Shown: positions 4,501 through 57,790 of the stretch, piece by piece
How the letters are laid out: each line of letters starts with the position of its first letter
Numbering within the stretch: position 1 is the stretch's first letter
NCBI RefSeq assembly: GCF_026151205.1
Contig: NC_087080.1
Span: 1,668,879-1,732,878 of the forward strand
Reading direction: 5' to 3'
Length of the DNA: 64,000 nt
Source: Bolinopsis microptera
Lineage: Eukaryota > Ctenophora > Tentaculata > Lobata > Bolinopsidae
Program-made: the position numbers and the translations under genes
Notes under the pieces: model-generated
The model's input: the letters and a program-made list of their open reading frames with translations, nothing else
Told to the model about the DNA's origin: nothing
Database searches by the model: none

Positions 4501-7500
4501 AATAAGACCCCCCTGTTTCGCGGATTTTGGAAGGAAATATTTGTGCCTCAAAACCGCGAATCCATGACCCAAATATATTGGTCTAACTGGTAACACAGGC
4601 CACGATAATACCTTGCTGCACTACAAAACACCTCAATATGCTTTCATTTATACAGAGTGGGCCAGAACATCGCGGCCCGATTATCAACCGTGGTCCCAAA
4701 ATTTTCAAAATGAAAAAAAAATCAAAGTTTTTCTAAAAATTGTATTTCTGCATGTTTCATGTGATTCCAATCATTTTGAGCAAAAACTTTTTTTTTCAAA
4801 TTTTCCAAATTTCCAATCGAGGAAAACTTTATTTGGTAATTAACGATAGAAGAAGTTGTGGTCCTACAAAAGAAGCAAACTACGAGGGGACGGGGTATAA
4901 TTGCATTTATTAACGATTTTGACTCATTGATTATTCTGCGTGTTATTTAATAACATATTAACCACTCTAGCCGGTGGTTAATAAAATATTAACCACTCCA
5001 GCTGGTGGTTAATACAATATTAACCACTCTTCCCGGTGGTTAACGCTAAAAATTAACTCACCCTGGGAGTGGTTGAATACTGGCGTGGAGGGGTGTTGTG
5101 GAAGGGTGTTGTGGGGGGTGTGGGGGCAGGGGCCAGGGCGGGGGGGGGGGGGACTGGGTTCAGGTACATGCTATTTGGTAAACACGTTTGGTATATATTT
5201 TATATTCTTTACGCTTTACGTTTATTTTTTTAGTAATTTTTCCCGATCTGACACGATTGTTATTGTAAGATCTTTTAATTTGAATCTTGAATCTTGAATC
5301 TTGAATCTATATATTTTGATAAAGTTTTTAGATTAGGCGTTTTGTAGTGCATTGAGGTGCTATCATGGTCTGTCATGCCAGTTAGACTAGTATATTTAGG
5401 CCATAGGCTGCATCCCGGTTTTTAAGACCCAAAATTTTCCTCCCAAAATCGGCGAAACAGGTGACAGGGGGTCTGACTGTATAACTATAAATACAGTTAA
5501 AGTTATACCACACTGCCACCCTCCCCCACCCTTCGTGCGCGGTTTATGAGGCCCAAACTTTTCATCCCGAGATATTTTCTTGGGAAGACATTGTCTTTTG
5601 GTGGTGAAGACATTGTTCAGGTTATCATAACGTTAGCTATAACCGCTTATATAGTATACACCTGGCAAACTTTCGTCATAATCACTAACTCCTGTGTAGG
5701 TGCTACCTTGCTGATACGTGAACCAAAGGCATTCCATCAGTGATTGGGTGTGAGATATAGCTCATATGATTGCTCATCTAAACGCAATAACATATTTTCG
5801 GCGATTCGTATCACGTGACGTGACTGTGTGCAAATGATTGGGCTGGCGAATTTTGACCGATGACATGCTGTACGTGGCTAATTACCGATTTGATGGGTTT
5901 AAAAGGACACTGAAACTTGTATTTATCTATTACACATTTACTACATCAAGATGACATCTCCTCACTTCCTCTCTTGGAACGACCTCGATAGAGCTAACGT
6001 GCTGGCAACAGAAGAGAACTGTATACAGTACTGCGTTGACGTTGGGATACTACGAGATCGCAGATACTGTACCACCTGCCAACAATGGATGACGATAGTG
6101 AAATGCTCGACTCAGAAGTTTAAAGATGGCTGCTGCTGGCGATGCCCTGGTGGAGCTCACTTCGTGTCCATCCGCACTGACTCCCTCCTGGCCGGGAAAC
6201 AGATACCTGCTATGAAGTTTCTACACCTACTTTGGCTCTACTGTACCTTTAGCAGCGTCTGCCAAGCTGCAGTTACCCTCTCTATGGATCCTAAGAAAGT
6301 CCGGGGATTCTTTAAAGCTATCAGACAGTGCATGGCGGAAGACTTGTTCTCTGGTGACGTGATGATCGGAGGTCCTGGACAGATAGTAGAAATTGACGAG
6401 TTTATGTGGATGAGAAAACAAGGTCTCACTCGCTCTGATCCTGATTGCCGGAGACTTTTCAACAGAGAACTACCACTTTTGATGAAAAGACTGTTTGCAT
6501 AGTTATAACGTGTGATAGCGAAGTACTGAATGGATTGATATAATATTTTAATTTATCTGTACATTAAACTCGTTCTGTAATTCAACGTTGTATCTCAGAC
6601 AATAATTGATGTACTATTACTATTCGATTAATCATTTATGTAATTTATTAATCTACCTATGAAATTTGATTCGAAATAAATTGAAATTCTAACAAAATTG
6701 AAGTCTTAATAATTGCATCTGCGCACTATAAGACATGCATCATGAAATATTATGATTTGCATCGCGATATTGGGTCGAGCCGTCAGGCGAGATGCTAATA
6801 GCAATACAATTATAACAAAAGCGAGGTGCTATTGCCAACATTGTTACGTACGTCAAAAACTACTAACCTAGTCTAAAATGGGGAGGGAGGGGAGTGGAGA
6901 GGTGCTGGGACGGGAGTGGGGGTAAAGACACGAGAGGGAGCAGGGGAGTGGAAAGATGCTGGGGCCGGGAGCGGGGGTAAATACAAGAGAGGGAGCAGGG
7001 GAGTGGAGAGGCGCTGGGGCCGGGAGCGGGGGTAAAGACGAGAGGGAGCAGTGGAGAGGTGCTGGGCCGGGAGCGGGAGTAAAGACAAAAGAAGGAGCAG
7101 GGGAGTGGAGATGCGCTGGGGCCGGGAGCGGGGTAACGACGAGAGGGAGCAGGGGAGTTGAGAGGTGCTGGGCCGGGAGCGGGAGTAAAGACAAAAAAGG
7201 GAGCAGGAGGGTGGAGAGGCGCTGGGGCCGGGAGCGGGGGTAAAGACAAGAGAGGGAGCAGGGGAGTGGAGTGGTGCTGGGCCGGGAGCGAGGGTAAAGA
7301 CAAGAGAGGGAGCAGGGGAGTGAAGAGGTGCTGGGCTGGGAGCGGGAGTAAAGACAAAAGAGGGAGCAAGGGAGTGGAGTGGTGCTGGGCCGGGAGCGAG
7401 GGTAAAGACAAGAGAGGGAGCAGGGGAGTGGAGAGGTGCTGGGTCGGGAGCGAGGGTAAAGACAAGAGAGGGAGCAGGGGAGTGGAGAGGTGCTGGGCGG

Positions 7501-14950: not shown

Positions 14951-15262
14951 AACATTTTATTTGGCTGTATCTTCGGTTGTGTAGGATATTTTTTGACGCG
15001 ATTTAAACTTACTAACAAAGAATACTATTAGCGTCCTCCCTGTGACCACGGCTTTTCTAGTTTGTTATATAGTAGTGTTGAAAGTATGAACACATGAAAA
15101 CATGTGCATCCACATCCACACCCACTTCCACTGGTCTTTATTGTGGGTGGCCGGTGGTGACGACACAATGCGACACACATCTTAACAATAACATTAACAG
15201 AATAAGTTCTCGATTTAAGTCGATATTCAAAATTTCTATAACGTTTCAATTTGTTTGCTGCA

Positions 15263-16159
15263 ATGAGGACTGTAATCCTGATTATAAATTTCTCTACTCT
15301 TTTCATTTTGGTAAATGCAAACTGTGGCTACACATACACTGACCCTGTCCATGGTGTTCAAAAGGTGATAACAGCAGCTTGGCAGCAGATTACAGGACAA
15401 CTTACCAAGATCTCGAAAGGAGATTCAGGAGTGTGGGGTGTCAATAGCAATGACAAAATCTACCAGCTTAATACTAATGGAAACAGCTGGACTCAAATCG
15501 CTGGTGGATTGGTGCAAGTTTCATCTGGGGCATCTGTTTGGGGGGTCAACAAAGCCGATGCAATCTACAAGTACTTGGGAGACAACAAATGGAGAAAGAT
15601 CGGCGGACTACTGACAAACGTAGATGTGAGCAACAAGGATCACGTGTGGGGAGTGAACAGAGGACAGAATATCTACAGAAGGACTGGCGGCTCATGGCAG
15701 CATATCGGCGGGAAACTCATCCAAATCAGTGTCGGGGAATCTGGGGTGTGGGGAGTGAATTCGGCACACGATATCTACTACCGAGTGGGAACGTACGGTG
15801 ACGCCGACACTGCTGGAACAAGCTGGACACAGGTTTCTGGAAAACTGCAATGGATTAGCTCAGGAACGGACCTTGTTGTTGGCGTAAATTCTGCTAATGA
15901 AATCTTTTACCGCGAGGGAATGACAGCAGATAACCCTACAGGCACAGGATGGGTAAAGGTATCTGGAAAGTTGATGCAGATCGATGTGAACAGAAAAGAA
16001 GTAGTTGGAACTAACTCTGGGCACTCAATCTACAAATCTCCAGTCGGAGATGAATATGTTCAAAAGGTGATAACAGCAGCTTGGCAGCAGATTACAGGAC
16101 AACTTACCAAGATCTCGAAAGGAGACTCAGGAGTGTGGGGTGTCAATAGCAATGACTAA
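15263..16159 (+). CDS. Secreted tectonin-repeat lectin (six-bladed propeller)
   Basis: The ATG at 15263 opens a hydrophobic signal peptide (MRTVILIINFSTLFILVNA), followed by six tectonin repeats of ~36-45 residues. Each starts with W-x-x-[IV]-x-G-x-L and contains VWGVN or VVGVN and IY or IF near its end (blade starts WQQITG, WTQIAG, WRKIGG, WQHIGG, WTQVSG, WVKVSG). This is the fish-egg-lectin/tachylectin-1 fold family, secreted beta-propellers that bind glycans and act in egg protection or innate recognition; ligand here unknown. No intron interrupts the frame. After blade six, a 702-bp tandem copy begins (16058), but a TAA at 16157-16159 ends translation one third into its first blade, giving 298 aa. 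The product would be one complete propeller with a short tail. Confidence 0.85.
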   Translation: MRTVILIINFSTLFILVNANCGYTYTDPVHGVQKVITAAWQQITGQLTKISKGDSGVWGVNSNDKIYQLNTNGNSWTQIAGGLVQVSSGASVWGVNKADAIYKYLGDNKWRKIGGLLTNVDVSNKDHVWGVNRGQNIYRRTGGSWQHIGGKLIQISVGESGVWGVNSAHDIYYRVGTYGDADTAGTSWTQVSGKLQWISSGTDLVVGVNSANEIFYREGMTADNPTGTGWVKVSGKLMQIDVNRKEVVGTNSGHSIYKSPVGDEYVQKVITAAWQQITGQLTKISKGDSGVWGVNSND

Positions 16160-16759
16160 ATCTACCAGCTTAATACTAATGGAAACAGCTGGACTCAAAT
16201 CGCTGGTGGATTGGTGCAAGTTTCATCTGGGGCATCTGTTTGGGGGGTCAACAAAGCCGATGCAATCTACAAGTACTTGGGAGACAACAAATGGAGAAAG
16301 ATCGGCGGACTACTGACAAACGTAGATGTGAGCAACAAGGATCACGTGTGGGGAGTGAACAGAGGACAGAAAATCTACAGAAGGACTGGCGGCTCATGGC
16401 AGCATATCGGCGGGAAACTCATCCAAATCAGTGTCGGGGAATCTGGGGTGTGGGGAGTGAATTCGGCACACGATATCTACTACCGAGTGGGAACGTACGG
16501 TGACGCCGACACTGCTGGAACAAGCTGGACACAGGTTTCTGGAAAACTGCAATGGATTAGCTCCGGAACGGACCTTGTTGTTGGCGTAAATTCTGCTAAT
16601 GACATCTTTTACCGCGAGGGAATGACTGCAGATAACCCTACAGGCACAGGATGGGTAAAGGTATCCGGAAAGTTGATGCAAATCGATGTGAACAGAAACG
16701 AAGTAGTTGGAACTAACTCAGGACATTCTATTTACCGATCTGCAGTCGGACAAAAATAA
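16058..16759 (+). pseudogene. Second tectonin propeller copy after a stop
   Basis: Near-identical repeat of 15356-16057 at an offset of exactly 702 bp (234 codons), so the frame is kept. The only serious lesion is AAA to TAA at 16157-16159 (copy 1 reads NDKIYQ, copy 2 ND-stop-IYQ). After the stop the frame is intact to 16759 and codes blades 1-6 again, with few substitutions (N to K, E to D, K to N). It could be read only by readthrough, from an allele without the stop, or not at all. Confidence 0.8.
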
Positions 16760-22447: not shown

Positions 22448-24306
22448 TCAACCATCTTCTAACTTCTTCCACTCCTCCCTATCTAAAGCTAAAAATCTAA
22501 GGTCTTCGAAATCAGTCAAATTCTTAAGTCTAATATCAAGATTTCTACTAGTCAAGTCTTTTCTAATAACATCTAATAAGTTTAAACATGGTCTACCCCG
22601 TCTCCCTTCCATAAAAATATCAGAATTTATAGCAAATAACATAGAGGTGTATGCTGGTGAGTCTTCCTGTCCTCTTAAGATATGTCCTAACATTCTCCAT
22701 CGAAACTTAGAGACTCTCACAGACAAGGGAGTGACATAACAACGAGCATAGAGTGCCTCATTAGAAATAACCCCAGTAGGCCATCTGATGTTGAGGATTC
22801 TTCGGAGGTGTTTGCGATGAGCAATATCAAGTTCATTCAACGAAGCTAGTGGTGCAGCCCAGGAGTTGCAGTTGTAGAGTAGAATAGAGACTACTTGTGC
22901 CTCGTAGATTTTGATCTTCCTTTGGACTGAAATCTTGCTCTTCATCCAAACTTTCTGAAATTTACTAAAGGCGACATTACCAAGGAATATTCGATTCTTG
23001 ATATCCTTAACAGTGCACATCAACGATCCTAAAGTTTTGTTAGAGCGCCACTCTTCATCACCTCTATACACTTTTCCAACAATCACCTTGCGTTTAACAG
23101 TGGGTTTAGGATCTGCTAAATAAAAATGGACAAATTCAGTCTTGGAAGAATTGATATGAAGGTCCCACTGCTGGAATATATCTTTAGCGATAGGAAGCAT
23201 TTCTTTGAGTGGAGCAAGTTCAGTGTTATTAAAGTCAATATCATCAGAGTATCCTGTTTCGAGTGGCATGAATTCTTCTGAGATAGGAGGATTAGGGATT
23301 GGATGATTCACTGGGTAAGGTGTTGATGATACTTGGGAGAGTACAGATCTGAGGTGAATAAGTGCAGCGGCTTCAACAACAGTAAATAGATTACCTGATA
23401 GTGCATCTCCTTGAAATGCTCCAGTTGTGCTTTGGAACTCAATTGATACAGTATTATTGACTTTTACTTTCAACACTGTGTTTGATAGTAGGAGCCGTAC
23501 CATCCTAATTTCATCACTAGTACAGCCAGCATCTTCAAGAACATTGAGTACTGTTTCTCTGCTGATGGTGTCAAAGGCACTTGACATGTCTATACTCATT
23601 CTGTGGTAGCTCCAATGCTTTCTAAGTACCACTGAGGTTAGCATACGTTGAGACCAAATTATATCGCCACAACTTCTACCTCTCTTGTAAGCACTTTGTG
23701 TAGGACCGGTGTACTGATCTAGCTTGCCTTGGATACGTTTTAGGGTAATCATTGACAGTAATTTTCTGGAGCAGTTTGAGAGGGTGAGAGGTCTGATGTT
23801 TGCTGCTGGACCAAGTGGTTTCTTAGGCTTTTGGAGTGGAGTAATGTTGCCTTTTCCAATAGATGTTATGGTGGTGTTTGTTTCAAATGCGGTATTTATA
23901 CAGTCTGCATATTTCTGAAATACACTTCTGTTTGCATACTTAATCAATTCACTTGGGATATCATCAGGCCCAGTGGCTCTACCATTCTTCAAAGCTTTAG
24001 CAGCTATCTCAACTTCAATAGCGGTAATAGGGTCAGCGAGAGGACTAGGTTGATCAAAGAAAGTGTCAATAGGCTCAACTGTATGTTTTGCAGTGAACTT
24101 CTCTTCAAAGTGGTTCTTTAGTGTAGCAGCTTTTCCAGTGTCTGTACCTATGAAGTTAGAGTTTTCATCATGCACACTTATGGTTGGAGCACGTTTGATA
24201 CCTGCTAGTTGGCGAGTGGCTGCAAAGTATGCTCTAGAACTGTCAGTTTCGTTTATCTCTTCAGCAAGAGTGTCTGCATGCTCTTCTTGAAGGAGCTTGA
24301 TTCTCT
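22448..24306 (-). pseudogene. LINE reverse transcriptase half of the split ORF
   Basis: Frame with the RT palm blocks in order: RPLTLSNCSRKLLSMI, AYKRGRSCGDIIWSQRM, IDMSSAFDTISRETVL (first catalytic Asp), GAFQGDALSGNLF and GYSDDIDF, where YSDD corresponds to the FxDD catalytic box. A C-terminal region with RRGRPCLNLLDVIRKDL follows. No internal stop is present. The frame runs 70 bp further into the foldback element by chance (to 24376), so its apparent Met start is not the real one. Before the insertion, RKRIKLLQEE followed directly on the endonuclease segment ending NRIQNDT. Confidence 0.85.
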
Positions 24307-24345
24307 TACGAAGGCCCCGTGACAGCATGGACATTTTTTCGTAAT

Positions 24346-24562
24346 TCGCATCTTTTGGCGTTAAGCTTAACTCCAAAAGATGCGATTTGACGTCGTGTCA
24401 AATAATTTTGACTTGAAATAATCGAGATTTATCCCCAAATTGCATCTTTTGGCGCTAAGCTTAACGCCAAAAGATGCCGTTTGACGGATAAAGTCGTAAA
24501 ATCTTAAAATGCGTTTTCAAATGGCATCTTTTTGAGTTAACCTTAACCCCAAAAGATGCGAT
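24346..24562. repeat. Left array of hairpin-forming palindromes
   Basis: Three units at about 24346-24383, 24441-24478 and 24523-24560. Each is a near-perfect palindrome with arms GCATCTTTTGGCGTTAAG and its complement, centred on AAGCTT or ACCTTA. Spacers are about 60 and 45 bp. Confidence 0.85.
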
Positions 24563-26568: not shown

Positions 26569-26911
26569 TCGCATCTTTTAGGGTTAAGCTTAACTCAAAA
26601 AGATGCGTTTTAGCGACGCATTATAAAATTTTCAAAATATTTGTAAAACCGCATCTTTTGGCGTTAAGCTTAACTCCAAAAGATGCGATTTAGCGACGCG
26701 TTATAAAATTTTCAAAATATTTCTTAAACCGCATCTTTTTGAGTTAACGACACGAATTACGATTCTAGCTTTCGGTTTAAAGCGCATCTTTTGGCGTTAA
26801 GACTAACTCCAAAAGATGCGAGTAAAGAATCGAAAGATGCACGTTCACGACTCGGGTTTTTTAAGAAATTTTAGCGTAGAAATGCATCTTTTGAGCTTAA
26901 GCAGGCATCTT
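26569..26911. repeat. Right array of hairpin-forming palindromes
   Basis: Units at about 26569-26606, 26650-26688, 26783-26820 and partial units at 26731-26752 and 26884-26911, same palindrome as in the left array. CGACGCGTTATAAAATTTTC-like spacers repeat between units. Confidence 0.85.
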
Positions 26912-26956
26912 TTTTGCGCCAAAGCGCAATGTCCAGGGTGTCACGGGGCCTTTACG

Positions 26957-28255
26957 AGTGTCATTTTGAATACGATTGATTTTGGTACGTATAACTGATC
27001 TATCTTCAGAGGTGTTGTTCTGATTGATTAGAGCTTGTAGAACTTTCTTTTCATCAGACATCTCTCGAATTTCAAGGTCATTACAAAAGTTTTTAGGGCG
27101 TTTCCTAGGAAGGTATCCAATACTAACCTCAGCAGCTTTATGTACATTGTGAAACAAACTATTCATTTCTTCCTCAGGGTTAGGATTAACAGGGCTGTCT
27201 GTTAGAATATCATTCAATGTGTTGTTGTAATGCATTTTAGCAGCAGGATTACTGACAAGGGTTGTGATATCAAAATGCATTTTAGGTTTCTGTTTGGGGA
27301 AGACAAGGTGAGCGTCACTGAAGTTGAAACGTGTAATAACAATTTTGTGATCAGATTTAACAAGAGTACCCCCATAACTTCGAGAATTCACTAAAAGTTT
27401 CTTCAATCGACTGCTACATAGGACATAGTCAATTTGAGAGTAGTAGGGTAAAGTGCGATGTGAGTTTTTAGGAGCTGAGTAGTCTTTCATAAAACCAATT
27501 CTTGTTGTTATATGACGGACAGGGTGCTGGAAGCTAGTGTTGCAAGCAAAAAGTTTTTTATCAACAAGAAAATTAAGAAGATGCTCTCCATTTGAATTCC
27601 TCTTTCCAGACCCATACATACCCATAAAGTCATTATACCCGAAAACAATATCTGAATGAGACAATTTACCGAGTCGAGAGTTGAAATCTCCAAGAATATA
27701 TAAGTCCCAACTTGATGGGATATCAACAGCTTTGCCAAGAAACTTGTAGAAATAATCACGTCTCTGCGGATACTTATCACAATTTACTTGAGTGTGTCCA
27801 TAGGCATTGATAACACGGCAAAGTCTTGGTTTACCTGATTTACTTGGTATCTCAAGATCTAGATAAGCAACCCTGTCACTGATACTGTTGTAACACTTGA
27901 TGTAGTTGGTATAGACTGAATTTACAAGAAAACCAATACCTGCTTGCCACTTATTGTCAAATTGCTGAAAGTTTATGAAGCGATATTTGTGTGATTTCCC
28001 ATCATCATCTGTAAAATGCAAAACTGAATCCTCAAAGTGACGACATTTTGTTTCTTGCACAGCGAGAATGTCTATTTTACGATAATAGCAATCTCTCAAA
28101 AGTTCATCCCGTTTAACTGGAGAAGTAATACCCAGGACATTAAAAGTAGCTAGAGTGAAGATTAGTGCTGTGCTTCTTCTTTTGCGTTCTGATGTAGATA
28201 ATCTACTCTGTACGTTGCCGCCAGAGCATCTGCCGAAATCACTCGAACAGACCAT
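26957..28255 (-). pseudogene. LINE APE-like endonuclease half of the split ORF
   Basis: The frame starts at ATG 28255 and shows the exonuclease-endonuclease-phosphatase motifs of LINE endonucleases in order: LATFNVLG (Asn), LAVQETKC (Glu), VINAYG, ILGDFNSRLG (Asp-x-Asn) and SDHKIV (Ser-Asp-His). These residues bind metal and cut target DNA. The frame then enters the linker toward the RT and is broken at NDTR by the foldback insertion, reaching a chance stop at 26897. Confidence 0.85.
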
Positions 28256-28299
28256 CCTAATTTTATTTTTATAACTCGAATAAAATGAAGAAAGCCAAA

Positions 28300-29140
28300 T
28301 ACAATTTTTTATAAAAAGTATGTAATGTAATGTTATAAAATAAAACTTTTAAAATTAAATTAAACGTTGCCTGGCGCGTCATTCCTTTTTTGCTTTGAAG
28401 ATTCATTAAATATTTTACATAGTTTGCTAATTAATTTGCATTATATTTTATGAAATGTTTTACATCTTTTTATTCTGTAAAATATGCTAAATGAAATTTC
28501 TTGTTTCATTGAATTTTTTGTTTCATTGAGATCCTTCTTTTCAGGTGAACACTTAGACTTACATTTCAAATTTAGAGCCACAAGGCCAATTTAATTGTAT
28601 ATTAATGTACTACATTTTTGACGGTTTCATTTAGGGTCATTGTGATTTTATGTTTATATTGTTTGAATACTTTTTATTTTACTTTATGGTGAATTACACA
28701 TGAATCATAAATGAAGACATTTCTGATCGAACTTTTGAACAGGAAATGTATAGTTGTTATGAAAGTTTTGTATCCACTCAGTTTCCTTCAAACCAATTAG
28801 ACCCGTTCGTAAATTATCATCTGATTAGAAAATAGGTTCAGAGGAAAAAGTTGCAGCACTGGAGGCTGACGGACCAAAAAAGCAGTGCCACACGGTTTGA
28901 CACTTCATCAAATATTCTCATTAAATTATTTAATCTCGTCCTTGACACTGGTTTACGAAAACGCTGCAACAATATGTTAGGATAATTTGCAGTTTTGCTG
29001 AAGGGCATAAATAATTTGTTTCACTTACTATACTTTGGTTTATTATTGCAATTCATGTCATCACTTATTTTAAGGTAACTAAGATGTGTTACAGAAGTAT
29101 GTGGCCGAAATCATAGGACTCTAAGCTGTTTACATCAAGT
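28300..29140. other. No supported gene
   Basis: AT-rich sequence between the LINE and the IMMP-like gene; it may hold the promoter of the latter. No motif is distinctive. Confidence 0.4.
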
Positions 29141-52168: not shown

Positions 52169-52504
52169 CCCTGTAGATGTACAAAAAATTATATTTTTAC
52201 AAAAGCAGATCAATCAAAATATAGATATCTGAGCTCTTCATGTGCAAACGGTTGTTCCAGTTGCGATAATCGATTTACAACCCTGGTTCAGATTTCGTTC
52301 CAGATATTCTCTGCTCATTTAGGGGACTCACAAGTTATGTCGTTTTGAGCAAAAGCGGAGGGGGAAACTTAACACTTAATAAAAATACATTATCCCTGAT
52401 GAAATGAAATCTTTTGGTCTACTACGCTGCTCCAAATAATTATTTTCCGAGAGATAACTTGATGATATGTAAATTGTAATCATCAATTAAGAAATGATGG
52501 CCAG

Positions 52505-52850
52505 TTGGTAGATCACCGACCGGCTATAAGCCGGCTACTAACCGGCTATAAGCCGGCTTATAGCCGGCTACAATTTTTATAGCCGGCTTATAGCCGGTTA
52601 GTAGCCGCTTACATTTGTTGTTGAGCGACGGCTATTAGCCGGTTATAAGCCTGCTATTAGCCGTTTTGGTATTAAAAGTGGTTATAAGCCGGTTATAAGA
52701 TATTAACTCAACTACATCGTACTGAACGATAGTCAGGAGCCGGCTATAAGAAATTCAGTGAAAACGGCTATTAGCCGGTTATAAGCCGGCTATTAGCCGT
52801 TTAGGTATCGAAAGTGGTTATAAGCCGGCTATAAGCCGGTTATAAGATAT
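52505..52850. repeat. Left-arm TTATAGCCGGC subrepeats
   Basis: Degenerate tandem 10-11-mers with GGCTATAAGCC palindromes, interrupted by ATCGTACTGAACGATAGTCAGGAGCC-type unique pieces. Mirror image at 56445-56880. Confidence 0.85.
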
Positions 52851-53274
52851 TAACTCAGTTCAGTACTAGTTAGGGCAAGAGTTGATTTTTCTGTGAACAA
52901 ATTCGTAACAAAGGTTTGTCTACTGGAATGTGTTGTCCATAGTCCCAGGAACCACAAAAAAAAACCGTCCAGCTGAAACTTTTGGGCAAAAATTTTTATA
53001 GTCATTTTTCTCCAGGAACCCATAGGCCCCACCCCCAATATTGGTTATTCGGCTCCCGAAGGTCTTGAGATCTCCATAGGGGGTGCAAAATGACTGCAAT
53101 GGCCACATTATGGTAGGCGAATGATAGTTTCAGAACGATTGGAGCTTTATTTTTCGAAATAAATGGAATTTTTCTCAATTTTTCTCAATTTTATTGAAAT
53201 TTCGAAAAAATACACCAAATTATTTTTAACGCTTATTTCAAATCTTACTCGGGAAATAACTTCAATTAACAAAT

Positions 53275-55940
53275 ATCAAGGTTAACTAACAAACAACAGA
53301 TTATTGACCAACCCCCAGACAGCTATTCGACGGTACATACTACTCTGGTTGAATGTCTTAAGTTATCCTACAGTGAGCCGATGATAATCACATTCGATTT
53401 GCCATTGTGGATTAAGGCCACCCGAATAGTACTGATAACTGGGATGCCTATTGTGGTCAGGGTTGGGGGCTTCCACACTCTCACGAGTTTTCTTGGCTGC
53501 ATAGGCTATATAATAGCAGACTCGGGTTTAGAGGAGCTCATCAAACTTGTGTATCCTGGAGACGTCACGCATATATCGGATGGAGGATCTTACTATATAA
53601 AGCGTTGAGAGCCCACTTTCTGATCGACGCCGCTCTTTGTTGTTTCATTATAGAGGAAGAAGTTTACGACGATGAACTAGTAGACTTGGAAGGTTACATC
53701 AACAAATGTGTGAACGAAAATCTAGGTGTTAACTTTAAGACTAAATCTTTTCAGGATCTATCAGAGAAAATAACTCTGCTTCTAAAGAACCTGTTTTCCA
53801 ACAGTAGAACAGCAGCTTTATGGGTTACTTACCACAACATGATAACACTAGTAAAGGACTTCATAAGAGCAGAGAGGTTGCACGACTACAATATGCATTT
53901 ATCAGCAGTAGCTTTGATGCTGCCCTACTTCGCAGCAGCTGGGAGGGGACAGTATGCAATAGCTTTAAGACTGTATTTGGAGCAGGATGCTATTTTAAAA
54001 GTCAAGTATGGGGCGCTTTTAAAGACCTTTAAAGTAACTGGGCTTCACACGGTTTGTGACAACGACCACGAGTGGGCCGGGGTGTGGACTGACCTCTCCA
54101 TAGAGCAGAGTCTTATGAGGGCAGCTAAATCTAGTGGTGGATTAACAAGTGGAAGGATGCGTAATCGTGAGTCCGCCTACAAGTTATGGGTGGCCACCCT
54201 GAATCAGATGGCTTTAATAAATCAGTCTTTTGGAGATTCATTAGCTAATTCATCGAAGCGAGGAGTACCAACTAAAGCTGCCATCCACTCAGATCTTAAC
54301 AAGTAAAGTCATCAATCAAGAAAAACTGTGATGTATTTGGAAAATTATTAACTTGGTTTAAAGTTACTGTCGACTTTACAGAATCCGAAGATAAGACTAA
54401 GTTAATATCTTTTTCGACTGGTCTTATATCACAGCCTGGGAACAATGAATTCCGAGGAATGTTTGGCCGTCGGGGCTGTCCTTCAACGTGAGCTAGATGG
54501 GTTGACATTCATCGATAAGATAAGTATCAAAGGTAAAGCAAAGAACTTGACACAACTGAGAAAGCAGGTTAAAGTGAATAATAAAAGCGTTGCAGTCGAT
54601 CCGTTGAAGTGTTTTAGCCGTCTAGTCTTGGTTGCTGATAGAGAGACTTCAATAGAGGAATGCCTAACATACGAGTTAACTGTGGTGCCGATGAGCTTAT
54701 TTGATCAATATCAGATGATGAGGAAATCTAATAAGGCTGCTCTTGGTATAAACCAATCTACACTTAAATCTTGCAGCTTCACGATCCCACTAGTCATTGA
54801 TGGAGGTTGGCTAATTCACCAACTAAGCTCATTTAAAGGGTGTGACAATTATGGTGAGGTAGCAATGGAGTACTTGAAGCTTATCCCTAAAAATCGGGAA
54901 GTTACTGTGATTTTTTATGGATATGAGCCTTCTACTAAAGATCACGAGCACAAGAGGAGAGTAAAAGCGTTCTGTGCTAATATTGCTGTAAAGAAATCCA
55001 CCTTTTGTACTGTCACCAAAACAACATTTCTGAGCAACAACAATAACAAAAAAGAACTGATCGACCTTATGTCAAGCATTTTTACTGTAAATGGTATTGA
55101 AGTGATCAGAGCTTGTAACGATGCTGATACTTTAATTGCAAAGAAAACATTGGAAATGTCATTCCTTGGCGATGTTGAATTGAATGCAGAGGATACCGAT
55201 ATAGTTCAAGTCTATTAGTACATCATTTCAACAGTGACCATCACAATGAAGGGTATAGGTACATATTCAATCAAAGAAATATCAAGTCATCTAGATCATA
55301 AAGAAAAGGAGATACTTCTTCTAATTCATAGTATTTCAGGTTGTGATAGCGTCAGTGGACTGTTTGGTTTTAACAAGGTTAAAGTGCTAAAGAAAGCTCT
55401 CACCTTTGATGAGCAAGGTCAGTTGGCAACATTACTTTCGGTGAGAGAATCAAAAGAAAAGATTATTGAGGCAGGCCTCTATTTCTTGCAGTACATTTAT
55501 GGTGACAAGAAAAAGACTCTTTCTGCTTTGAGATTCCTAGCATACAATAGGATGGTAGCGAAAAAGAGTCTCAATCCGAATAGGATACCTCCAACAATAG
55601 CTTCAGCAACGGAGCACATCCTTAGAGCTTACTTACAGTACCATAACTGGGTAATACTTAACGCTGACAGTCTGAATCCCCTTGACTACGGCTGAAAATT
55701 GGCTCCTGGTGGCAATTACGAACCAGTTGCAACAAAAGCTATAATTGCTCCAGAGTCTATTTTGAACCTTATATGTTGTAACTGTTCTGTCGTCTGTCGA
55801 TGTGGAACAGGCCTGTTTGACTTTCAGATGTTCATGTAGGAAATATGGCTTCAATTGTTTGCCAGCTTGTGGACGACGCCATGGTATGAACTGCACAAAC
55901 ATTAGACATGATGAACCTGAAGAACAAGCGAATTTTGATT
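53275..55940 (+). pseudogene. Transposon-borne protein with FEN/XPG-like nuclease motifs and Cys-rich tail
   Basis: One decayed reading frame, recognisable as an unnamed, multicopy invertebrate protein family. Pieces: 53275-53608 (ends in the wrong frame, ~1-nt shift near 53590), 53605-54306 (alpha-helical: TYHNMITLVKDFIRAERL, LPYFAAAGRGQYA, HEWAGVWTDLSIEQSLMRA), a shifted stretch to ~54445, 54445-55215, a TAG at 55216, and on in the same frame to a TGA at 55693-55695 where relatives have Trp. The tail is Cys-rich (CCNC, CSCRKYGFNC) in a further shifted frame and ends near 55940. In 54445-55695 acidic motifs follow the order of flap-endonuclease folds: VIDGGW, ACNDADTLIAKK, NAEDTDI, ISGCDS. 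I infer a FEN/XPG (PIN-like) nuclease fold. Catalytic activity and role in transposition are untested, and this copy is dead. Confidence 0.65.
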
Positions 55941-56444
55941 AATATTAACTGTGTATTAATAATTGTCATGGTATTTACTGAGAATACACATTTTAGATTG
56001 ACTGTATTTGTTATTTGTAGATGAGTTTTTAAATAGATTTGAAATAAGCGTTAAAAATAATTTGGTGTATTTTTTTTCGAAATTTCAATAAAATTGAGAA
56101 AAATTGAGAAAAATTCCATTTATTTCGAAAAATAAAGCTCCAATCGTTCTGAAACTATCATTCGCCTGCCATAATGTGGCCATTGCGGTCATTTTGCACC
56201 CCCTATGGAGATTTCAAGACCTTCGGGAGCCGAATAACCAATATTAGGGGTGGGGCGTATGGGTTCCTGGAGAAAAATGACTATAAAAATTTTTGCCCAA
56301 AAGTTTCAGCCGGACGGTTTTTTTTGGTGGTTCCTGGGACTATGGACAACACATTCCTGTAGACAAACCTTTGTTACGAATTTGTTCACAGATTGACCCA
56401 TAAACAGCAATTCTTGCCCTAACTATACGATGAAGTTAAGATTA

Positions 56445-56880
56445 TATCTTATAGCCGGCTTATAGCCGGCTTATAACCACTTTCGATACCTAAACGGCTA
56501 ATAGCCGGCTTATAACCGGCTAATAGCCGTTTTCGCTGAATTTCTTATAGCCGGCTCCTGACTATCGTTCAGTACGATGAAGTTGAGTTAATATCTTATA
56601 ACCGGCTTATAGCCGGCTTATAGCCGGCTTATAACCACTTTCGATACCTAAACGGCTAATAGCCGGCTTATAACCGGCTAATAGCCGTTTTCACTGAATT
56701 TCTTATAGCCGATACCTAAACGGCTAATAGCCGGCTTATAACCGGCTAATAGCCGTCGCTCAACAACAAATGTAAGCGGCTACTAACCGGCTATAAGCCG
56801 GCTTATAGCCGGCTATAAAAATTGTAGCCGGCTATAAGCCGGTTTATAGCCGGCTTATAACCGGCTTATAGCCGGTCGGT
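56445..56880. repeat. Right-arm TTATAGCCGGC subrepeats
   Basis: Inverted counterpart of the left array, slightly longer because blocks containing CTAATAGCCGTTTTC..GAATTTCTTATAGCC are repeated three times. Confidence 0.85.
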
Positions 56881-56899
56881 GATCTACCAATTTCCCTAA

Positions 56900-57790
56900 T
56901 CGATAATCATTAATTAAAAAATCTGTCGCACCTAGCCTGTAAGTCACTGCTCCCTGCATTTGGGAGCACTTTTCTGAAGAAATTGCAAAACTTCTTCAAA
57001 TTTCACAAAAAATTAATTCATAAAAATAGCGTACACACGAACAATCTAGAATATATTATGGGAATTACGGTATAATTTCACATTCTGTGATGCTTCGAGC
57101 ATCTAGAAAGCCGCTAAACTTTATTAAAATTTTTAAATTATAAAGTTGATTGAAATTACAATAAACCCTTATCAGTTTAAAAAGGGCGCCGGTAGTCACA
57201 TTATCACATACTTCCATGTAGCCAAAGCAACTAATATGGTAGACTTCTACAGCACTTCCCAGGACTAACTCTGCAACAGGGAGTGGTTACCAGTGAGGAG
57301 TTCAAGAAGGGGTAGGTACCAGTTACTGACTTTTCACCACTTTCTGTTGTGAACATTGGTTGGGGTTGGCGAAAGAGTTTCACTTTTGAGTGAAATTTCG
57401 ATTAAGTAGTTTCGTTGTTGTATTTTTGTAGTTTATTTTCTTTTATTTTGGTGAGTGATTATTCATCTTTTTAAAAAGATATAGATAAAGTGTTTTTAGC
57501 TAGTCTTTAGATAAAGTTAGCCACGAAGTTGTTTATTTATGTTGTATTTTTGTAGTCATTTTATTTTATTAAAGTATCATAGGTTTTAGATATGTATTGT
57601 TTACGCCTAAATTATTTGGTCAACTATGATTTAAAAAACAAGGCGTCAAATCAATAAAAAATTAATGAAATTTAATTGTAAACTATAAATGGAGATAAAT
57701 ATTTAAGTAATTGTTTGTTGCTCTAAAACATACTTCTCTCCAATCTCTTTTCTTTCAGGTGTAAGAAAACGGTACACTAGACAAGAAAAG
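56900..57790. other. No gene; presumed 5' region of next gene
   Basis: AT-rich with direct TTGTATTTTTGTAG repeats at about 57419-57432 and 57542-57555. A polypyrimidine-AG (CTTTTCTTTCAG) at about 57748-57759 precedes the ATG at 57798, so the first coding exon may follow an untranslated exon. Confidence 0.4.

Follow-up and report, generated by a model that had tools for sequence, protein, structure and literature searches.

The stretch of DNA analyzed here, referred to as the window, comprises 64,000 nucleotides of contig NC_087080.1 of the ctenophore Bolinopsis microptera (G000:C9:1668879-1732878 in the genome searched, which holds 264.7 Mb on 232 contigs). At approximately 52.5-56.9 kb of the window, long inverted arms are present around one decayed gene for a protein with a putative flap endonuclease (FEN)/XPG-like nuclease domain. 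A first-pass annotation had described this region as a single foldback transposon at 52505-56890, with long arms made of 10-11-bp subrepeats. The arms, outer units of 11 bp, and the gene were all found again. The arms form two sets, however, and the inner set has none of the units; the actual outer ends are at 52499 and 56896. The stretch consists of two nested DNA transposons, an older outer element and a gene-carrying inner element that inserted into it with duplication of TAC (Table 1).

Two nested elements

The inner element jumped into an outer element that was already present, because it has its own ends and 3-bp duplications, its empty site exists in outer sisters, and its other copies are free of outer arms. 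The inner terminal inverted repeats are approximately 380 bp long, and their longest exact inverted match is 96 bp, compared with no more than 12 bp in 200 mononucleotide shuffles. The inverted part that adjoins the gene ends at TAGTTAGGG, and the flanks diverge at this point in L003 and L004, two copies without outer arms. Exact 3-bp duplications were present in 23 of 23 inner copies (that of the window, L003, L004, and L021-L040). The 22 copies from outside the window were taken from 36 end pairs matched by hand, and the other 14 pairs were left out. A longer duplication was also considered with the boundary fixed (n = 23) and was rejected, being exact at 4 or 6-10 bp in no copy and at 5 bp in one.

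The uninterrupted (empty) site of 20 bp was found exactly in 7 of 16 outer sisters and with no more than 3 edits in 8, and it was absent from 1. Outer arms or ends were found in none of the 23 other inner copies examined (L002-L004 and L021-L040). For L021-L040, the sequence inspected took in 60 bp of flank, far enough to reach the start of any outer arms. L002 was judged from its left side, and L040, 934 bp long, retains little of the gene. The proposal of the first-pass annotation that the foldback arms are part of the gene’s element could thus not be maintained. In none of the 23 other copies examined is the gene flanked by TTATAGCCGGC arms, and the family has other, shorter inverted ends. 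Because the empty site exists and the two elements have separate duplications, the reading of the foldback arms as the gene’s own ends is refuted at this locus.

Table 1. Positions in the window of the two nested elements and of the remnants of the gene
Feature	Position	Strand	Frame	Remarks
Outer foldback element, Merlin-like	52499..56896	.		Ends GGCCAG-TTGGTAGATCACC...GGTGATCTACCAA-TTTCCC
Left outer target flank	52491..52498	.		GAAATGAT; only 5/8 bases agree with right flank
Right outer target flank	56897..56904	.		TAATCGAT
Left outer arm	52499..52866	+		11-bp CCGGCTATAAG/TTATAGCCGGC units; takes in left TAC
Right outer arm	56429..56896	-		11-bp units
Left TAC	52864..52866	.		3-bp target duplication of inner element
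Right TAC	56426..56428	.		3-bp target duplication of inner element
Inner gene-carrying element	52867..56425	+		3,559 bp (C9:1721745-1725303); TAGTTAGGG...CCCTAACTA
Inner left terminal inverted repeat	52867..53245	+		Without TTATAGCCGGC units
Inner right terminal inverted repeat	56035..56425	-		Without TTATAGCCGGC units
Gene remnant	53297..53596	+	3	Matches residues 448-547 of the L001 frame
Gene remnant	53597..54303	+	1	Rest of core, including D..xEQ motif
Gene remnant	54406..55215	+	1	Linker and first part of FEN-like domain; FDG is FYG
Gene remnant	55219..55692	+		Second part of FEN-like domain with GCD motif; past in-frame stop and shift
Gene remnant	55793..55933	+	2	Cys-rich CXC tail

The outer element is likely to be Merlin-like, to which the 8-bp duplications of its sisters and a piece of an ISXO2-type transposase in the sister L084 point. 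Its arms contain 11-bp subrepeats (Tandem Repeats Finder periods 11 and 22), and a search of the genome with an outer arm gave at least 367 matches. The ends of 17 copies (16 and that of the window) read GGCCAG or GGGAAA, followed by TTGGTAGATCACC. GG- termini are typical of Merlin. The 8-bp target duplications were exact in 15 of the 17 copies, the exceptions being L020, where 3 of 8 bases agree, and the window copy, where 5 of 8 do. Among four longer sisters, L081-L084, the duplication was exact in two, agreed at 7 of 8 bases in L084, and was not found in L083. Inside L084 there is a frame with a match to PF12762 (ISXO2-like transposase domain; E 4.3e-10, 40.2 bits, cut-off 27), which is a fragment only and was found in one of the four longer sisters. 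Merlin makes 8-bp duplications (PMC10045372). Both traits of this superfamily, the 8-bp duplications and a transposase of the IS1595/ISXO2 type, were found for the outer element. It differs from Merlin and ISXO2 (IS1595) in its very long arms of 11-bp subrepeats, and the window copy possesses no Merlin gene.

Some other frames were noted in connection with outer-type copies. L081:1061-2983 and L083:680-1630 (both minus strand) were read by eye as a long interspersed element (LINE)-like reverse transcriptase and a GIY-YIG-like frame inside outer-type foldback copies. Judging from these frames, it appears that outer-type arms often contain later insertions. L082 has no enclosed frame of 90 amino acids or more. 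At 5903-6502 of the window there is a decayed frame with a C-terminus like the end of the Merlin-type frame of L084 (19 aligned residues, tblastx E 2e-5), and it has no Pfam match.

The gene and its protein

The gene remnants are numbered by the open frame of L001, which represents another lineage and is 55% identical to the window remnant (753 residues) and 61% to L003. Pieces of the gene were recovered at 53297-55933 in several frames. Residues 1-447 of the L001 frame have no match anywhere in the window, and thus two acidic residues of the core, D312 and D315, are gone as well. The copy is frameshifted, has in-frame stops, and carries FYG in place of the FDG motif.

The domains of the complete protein can be read from relatives. 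The N-termini of L070 and L072 possess Cys/His-rich stretches, which can be read as zinc-finger-like. In the core, six divergent proteins were aligned, and the acidic columns D312, D315, D481, D712, and E716 are invariant, that is, they never vary among the five or six letters present. A GxxH motif follows D481 at 504-507, with G in its first position and with no profile match in its support. The acidic residues of the core occur in a DDD/E-like order and suggest a transposase. The first-pass annotation had seen no known transposase here, a reading that the cores of the relatives do not support. In L074 (168-3368, minus strand), the core resembles PF20231 below the threshold (DUF6589; E 5.6e-4, 19.2 bits, cut-off 27), a possible link between this family of unknown function and the core. 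The name DUF6589 was not found in the literature searched.

The nuclease part contains the acidic motifs IDGG, FDG-type, DAD, DTD, and GCD, and this order is kept in divergent relatives. In general form, ID, FD-Y-xxS-K, xAD, D-T/A-D, and GxD are in FEN order, although the FD motif of L074 has E for D. The acidic motifs in flap-endonuclease order, which had been noted from the window alone, were confirmed. A family profile (35 rows, 13 after filtering) was compared with the host FEN1, EXO1, and XPG and gave P 5.2e-6 and a probability of 86%. None of 300 full shuffles and none of 200 block shuffles reached its score, and the reversed reference gave P 0.49. A profile of eight divergent rows gave P 1e-6 and a probability of 91% against the same references, with 0 of 150 shuffles reaching the score; aligned identity was 19-20% in both profile comparisons. 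In L043, a Lys follows the FDG Asp at +7 and an Arg follows this Lys at +7, the same spacings as in the host FEN1, which was joined from exons of L049. The profile comparisons indicate that the protein contains a FEN/XPG-like nuclease domain, as the first-pass annotation had proposed. The family domain resembles the host 5' nucleases in seven carboxylates in the same order, in a Lys and an Arg equally spaced after FDG, and in a GCD followed by a G-rich helix-turn motif. It differs from them in being fused into a transposon protein, in low overall identity, and in being missed by Pfam XPG models.

The Cys-rich tail after the nuclease, which had also been noted, matches PF03638 (CXC) in L072 just over the cut-off (24.6 bits against 23.5). 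Scans of viral contigs found no relative of the protein. Bacterial and archaeal contigs were scanned only to gather FEN1 references and none was confirmed, a miss of the method, as FEN family models do match in archaea. This large gene thus seems to unite a transposase and a nuclease that cuts flaps.

Lineages and decay of the inner family

There are numerous relatives of the inner element in this genome. When two parts of the window gene were used as protein queries, at least 144 and at least 141 matches were obtained. A complete copy of the L001 lineage (C7:12447076-12454769) is 7,694 bp long and possesses inverted ends of approximately 385 bp, an AAC duplication, and a last frame of 1,342 amino acids. 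With L041 as the query, divergent relatives were found as well; 84 matches were listed with open frames of up to 1,568 amino acids, and six loci were read out. Full-length members are approximately 7-7.7 kb long, encode one large protein, and have open frames of 1,342-1,568 amino acids. Frames of 1,438-1,568 amino acids are present, among the matches listed, at C1:17562609, C11:9124125, C2:22480422, C6:3333607, C7:10451084, C5:1991395, and C12:13745805, and three of these loci were cut out and read (L070, L071, and L072). These long open frames suggest that other lineages of the family could have been active recently.

Further copies with both ends placed had exact 3-bp duplications in 11 of 11 cases, from five lineages besides that of the window. 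This count leaves out L074 and L075. Groups of one or two copies, in which the boundary was set by eye, carry less weight than the 23 copies described above, as does the copy L079+L072+L078, in which one terminus is shortened. In six lineages, inverted ends with 3-bp duplications flank the gene, and its protein is therefore very probably part of the mobility enzyme. The role suggested for it by the first-pass annotation was that of a possible mobility enzyme, or else of a passenger.

The TAGTTAGGG ends and 3-bp duplications are shared by four shortened sisters from the L001 lineage, L044-L047. Their arms are inverted copies of the gene’s own 3' end, with 639, 1,121, 863, and 354 bp aligned, respectively. 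The arm length differs from copy to copy, which suggests that foldback-like ends formed repeatedly and independently.

The window subfamily diverges by 0.54-1.44% from its consensus (19 of 22 aligned copies). Three copies were set aside: L003 and L035 have their ends swapped with respect to the gene, and L025 contains little of it. In the 19 copies, the ratio of nonsynonymous (N) to synonymous (S) changes amounts to 1.02 times that expected under neutrality (173 N, 59 S). The subfamily is young and is no longer under selection as a gene. Between lineages, L001 compared with L002/L003 gave a proportion of nonsynonymous differences (pN) of 0.22-0.23 and of synonymous differences (pS) of 0.80-0.82, with the synonymous distance (dS) saturated. 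The comparison of pN with pS indicates purifying selection on the gene between lineages. The window copy, 5'-deleted and frameshifted, is probably non-autonomous. It was probably mobilized in trans, since it is without the first 447 residues and its subfamily decays neutrally.

Decayed relatives of the gene are also equally spaced on several contigs. Offsets of approximately 12, 49, and 62 kb are shared by C10 (7610894-7673368), C12 (1376434-1438908), and C13 (15331204-15393678), and more are found on C5, C6, C8, and C11. They look as if they were parts of a large repeated unit of tens of kilobases. Three regions elsewhere in the window were read by eye. Those at 22448-24397 and 26897-28348 (minus strand) contain LINE-like frames for reverse transcriptase and endonuclease, and the one at 15242-16759 (plus strand) contains a tectonin-like gene, the repeat of which is duplicated across an in-frame stop.

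Assignment of the inner family and proposed mechanism

Academ is a known but little-studied superfamily of DNA transposons with a DDD/E transposase, and it carries an XPG nuclease and a Cys8 finger. The inner family most likely belongs to this superfamily, in the AcademX lineage, because its 3-bp duplications and FEN-like domain fit the published traits of AcademX. According to PMC10045372, the duplications of AcademX are 3 or 4 bp and those of AcademH 9 or 10 bp, and they are apparently tied to the encoded nuclease and helicase. The mean size of Academ is 5,565 bp in a mollusc library (PMC10294476). The inner family resembles AcademX in its 3-bp duplications (23 of 23 and 11 of 11 further copies), terminal inverted repeats, size of several kilobases, and a nuclease in the transposase protein, which would be of the XPG type by profile comparison. 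The carboxylates of a FEN/XPG nuclease occur in FEN order across divergent relatives, apart from the E for D of L074 and the FYG of the window copy. Kolobok differs in making TTAA duplications. KolobokE, KolobokP, and KolobokD are similar in that a DDD/E transposase is associated with a nuclease, and they differ in the nuclease folds, which are lambda-exonuclease-like, His-Me, and DnaQ (PMC9587614). Among the papers listed by the literature searches, none expressly describes a transposon with a FEN or XPG nuclease.

A sequence of events can be proposed from these assignments. The Merlin-like foldback element with its 8-bp duplications was present first and was later hit by the 3.56-kb inner element. 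The full-length protein may bind the inverted ends through its Cys/His-rich N-terminus and CXC tail. The DDD/E-type core could then make the 3' cuts and join the ends with a 3-bp stagger, and the fused FEN/XPG-like domain could act on the 5' strand or flap there, cutting or trimming it. Taken as a whole, a Merlin-like outer element and an AcademX-like inner element with this processing of ends is considered a probable account.

Several points weigh against this account. The DDD/E-like reading of the core is drawn from conserved residues only. Single-sequence comparisons of the nuclease are weak (P 0.15 with XPG and 0.011 with FEN1), and the profile set against each reference alone gave P 0.00056 (FEN1), 0.049 (EXO1), and 0.16 (XPG). 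Pfam, PHROGs, and PDB sequence searches gave nothing above cut-off for the core or the nuclease, with the Pfam XPG models among those that fail to match. A search for the ends of L041 was unsuccessful, and in the window copy the two outer target flanks agree only imperfectly. The assignment to Academ rests on shared traits.

This last point bears on whether the inner family is instead a superfamily separate from Academ. One protein would then unite a divergent DDD/E core with a nuclease of FEN/XPG-like type, responsible for cutting the second strand at the ends, 3-bp duplications would be produced, and several lineages with long open frames would exist in one animal genome. In favor of this reading, searches of Pfam, PHROGs, and PDB brought up no named family. 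However, a fused XPG nuclease and a Cys-rich finger are traits of Academ. Zator is among the other superfamilies that also make 3-bp duplications, yet duplications of 3-4 bp together with a nuclease are the description of AcademX in the same source (PMC10045372). A separate superfamily is thus rather unlikely, and the undescribed transposon class of the first-pass annotation is set aside in favor of AcademX.

The FEN-like gene could also be a passenger of an inner element that is moved by another transposase. The gene decays neutrally in the window subfamily, and thus the 3.55-kb copies are independent of their own copy of the gene. Against this, six divergent lineages hold the same gene between inverted ends with 3-bp duplications, and the gene is under apparent purifying selection between them. 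In addition, no second long frame is present in the full-length copy L001+L052, where frames of 55 amino acids or more were considered; at the other loci the two longest frames of each were considered. A passenger role is therefore very improbable. Even less credence is given to one foldback element that owns the gene. The arms and the gene do lie together here, with the outer arms enclosing the gene, but those arms accompany none of the 23 other inner copies examined, the inner element possesses ends and a duplication of its own as well as an empty site, and the outer sister L084 holds the ISXO2-type transposase piece instead. The preferred reading remains that of an AcademX-like element nested in a Merlin-like one.

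The nesting of the two elements is well resolved at this locus. A tempting error is corrected here, since hairpin arms and a gene found side by side can derive from two unrelated elements. The copies with arms made from their own inverted 3' end (354 to 1,121 bp) suggest how foldback-like forms arise. Six lineages of one transposon family are present in one genome, several of them with long open frames and clean duplications. These lineages offer material for testing what a flap nuclease fused to a transposase does.

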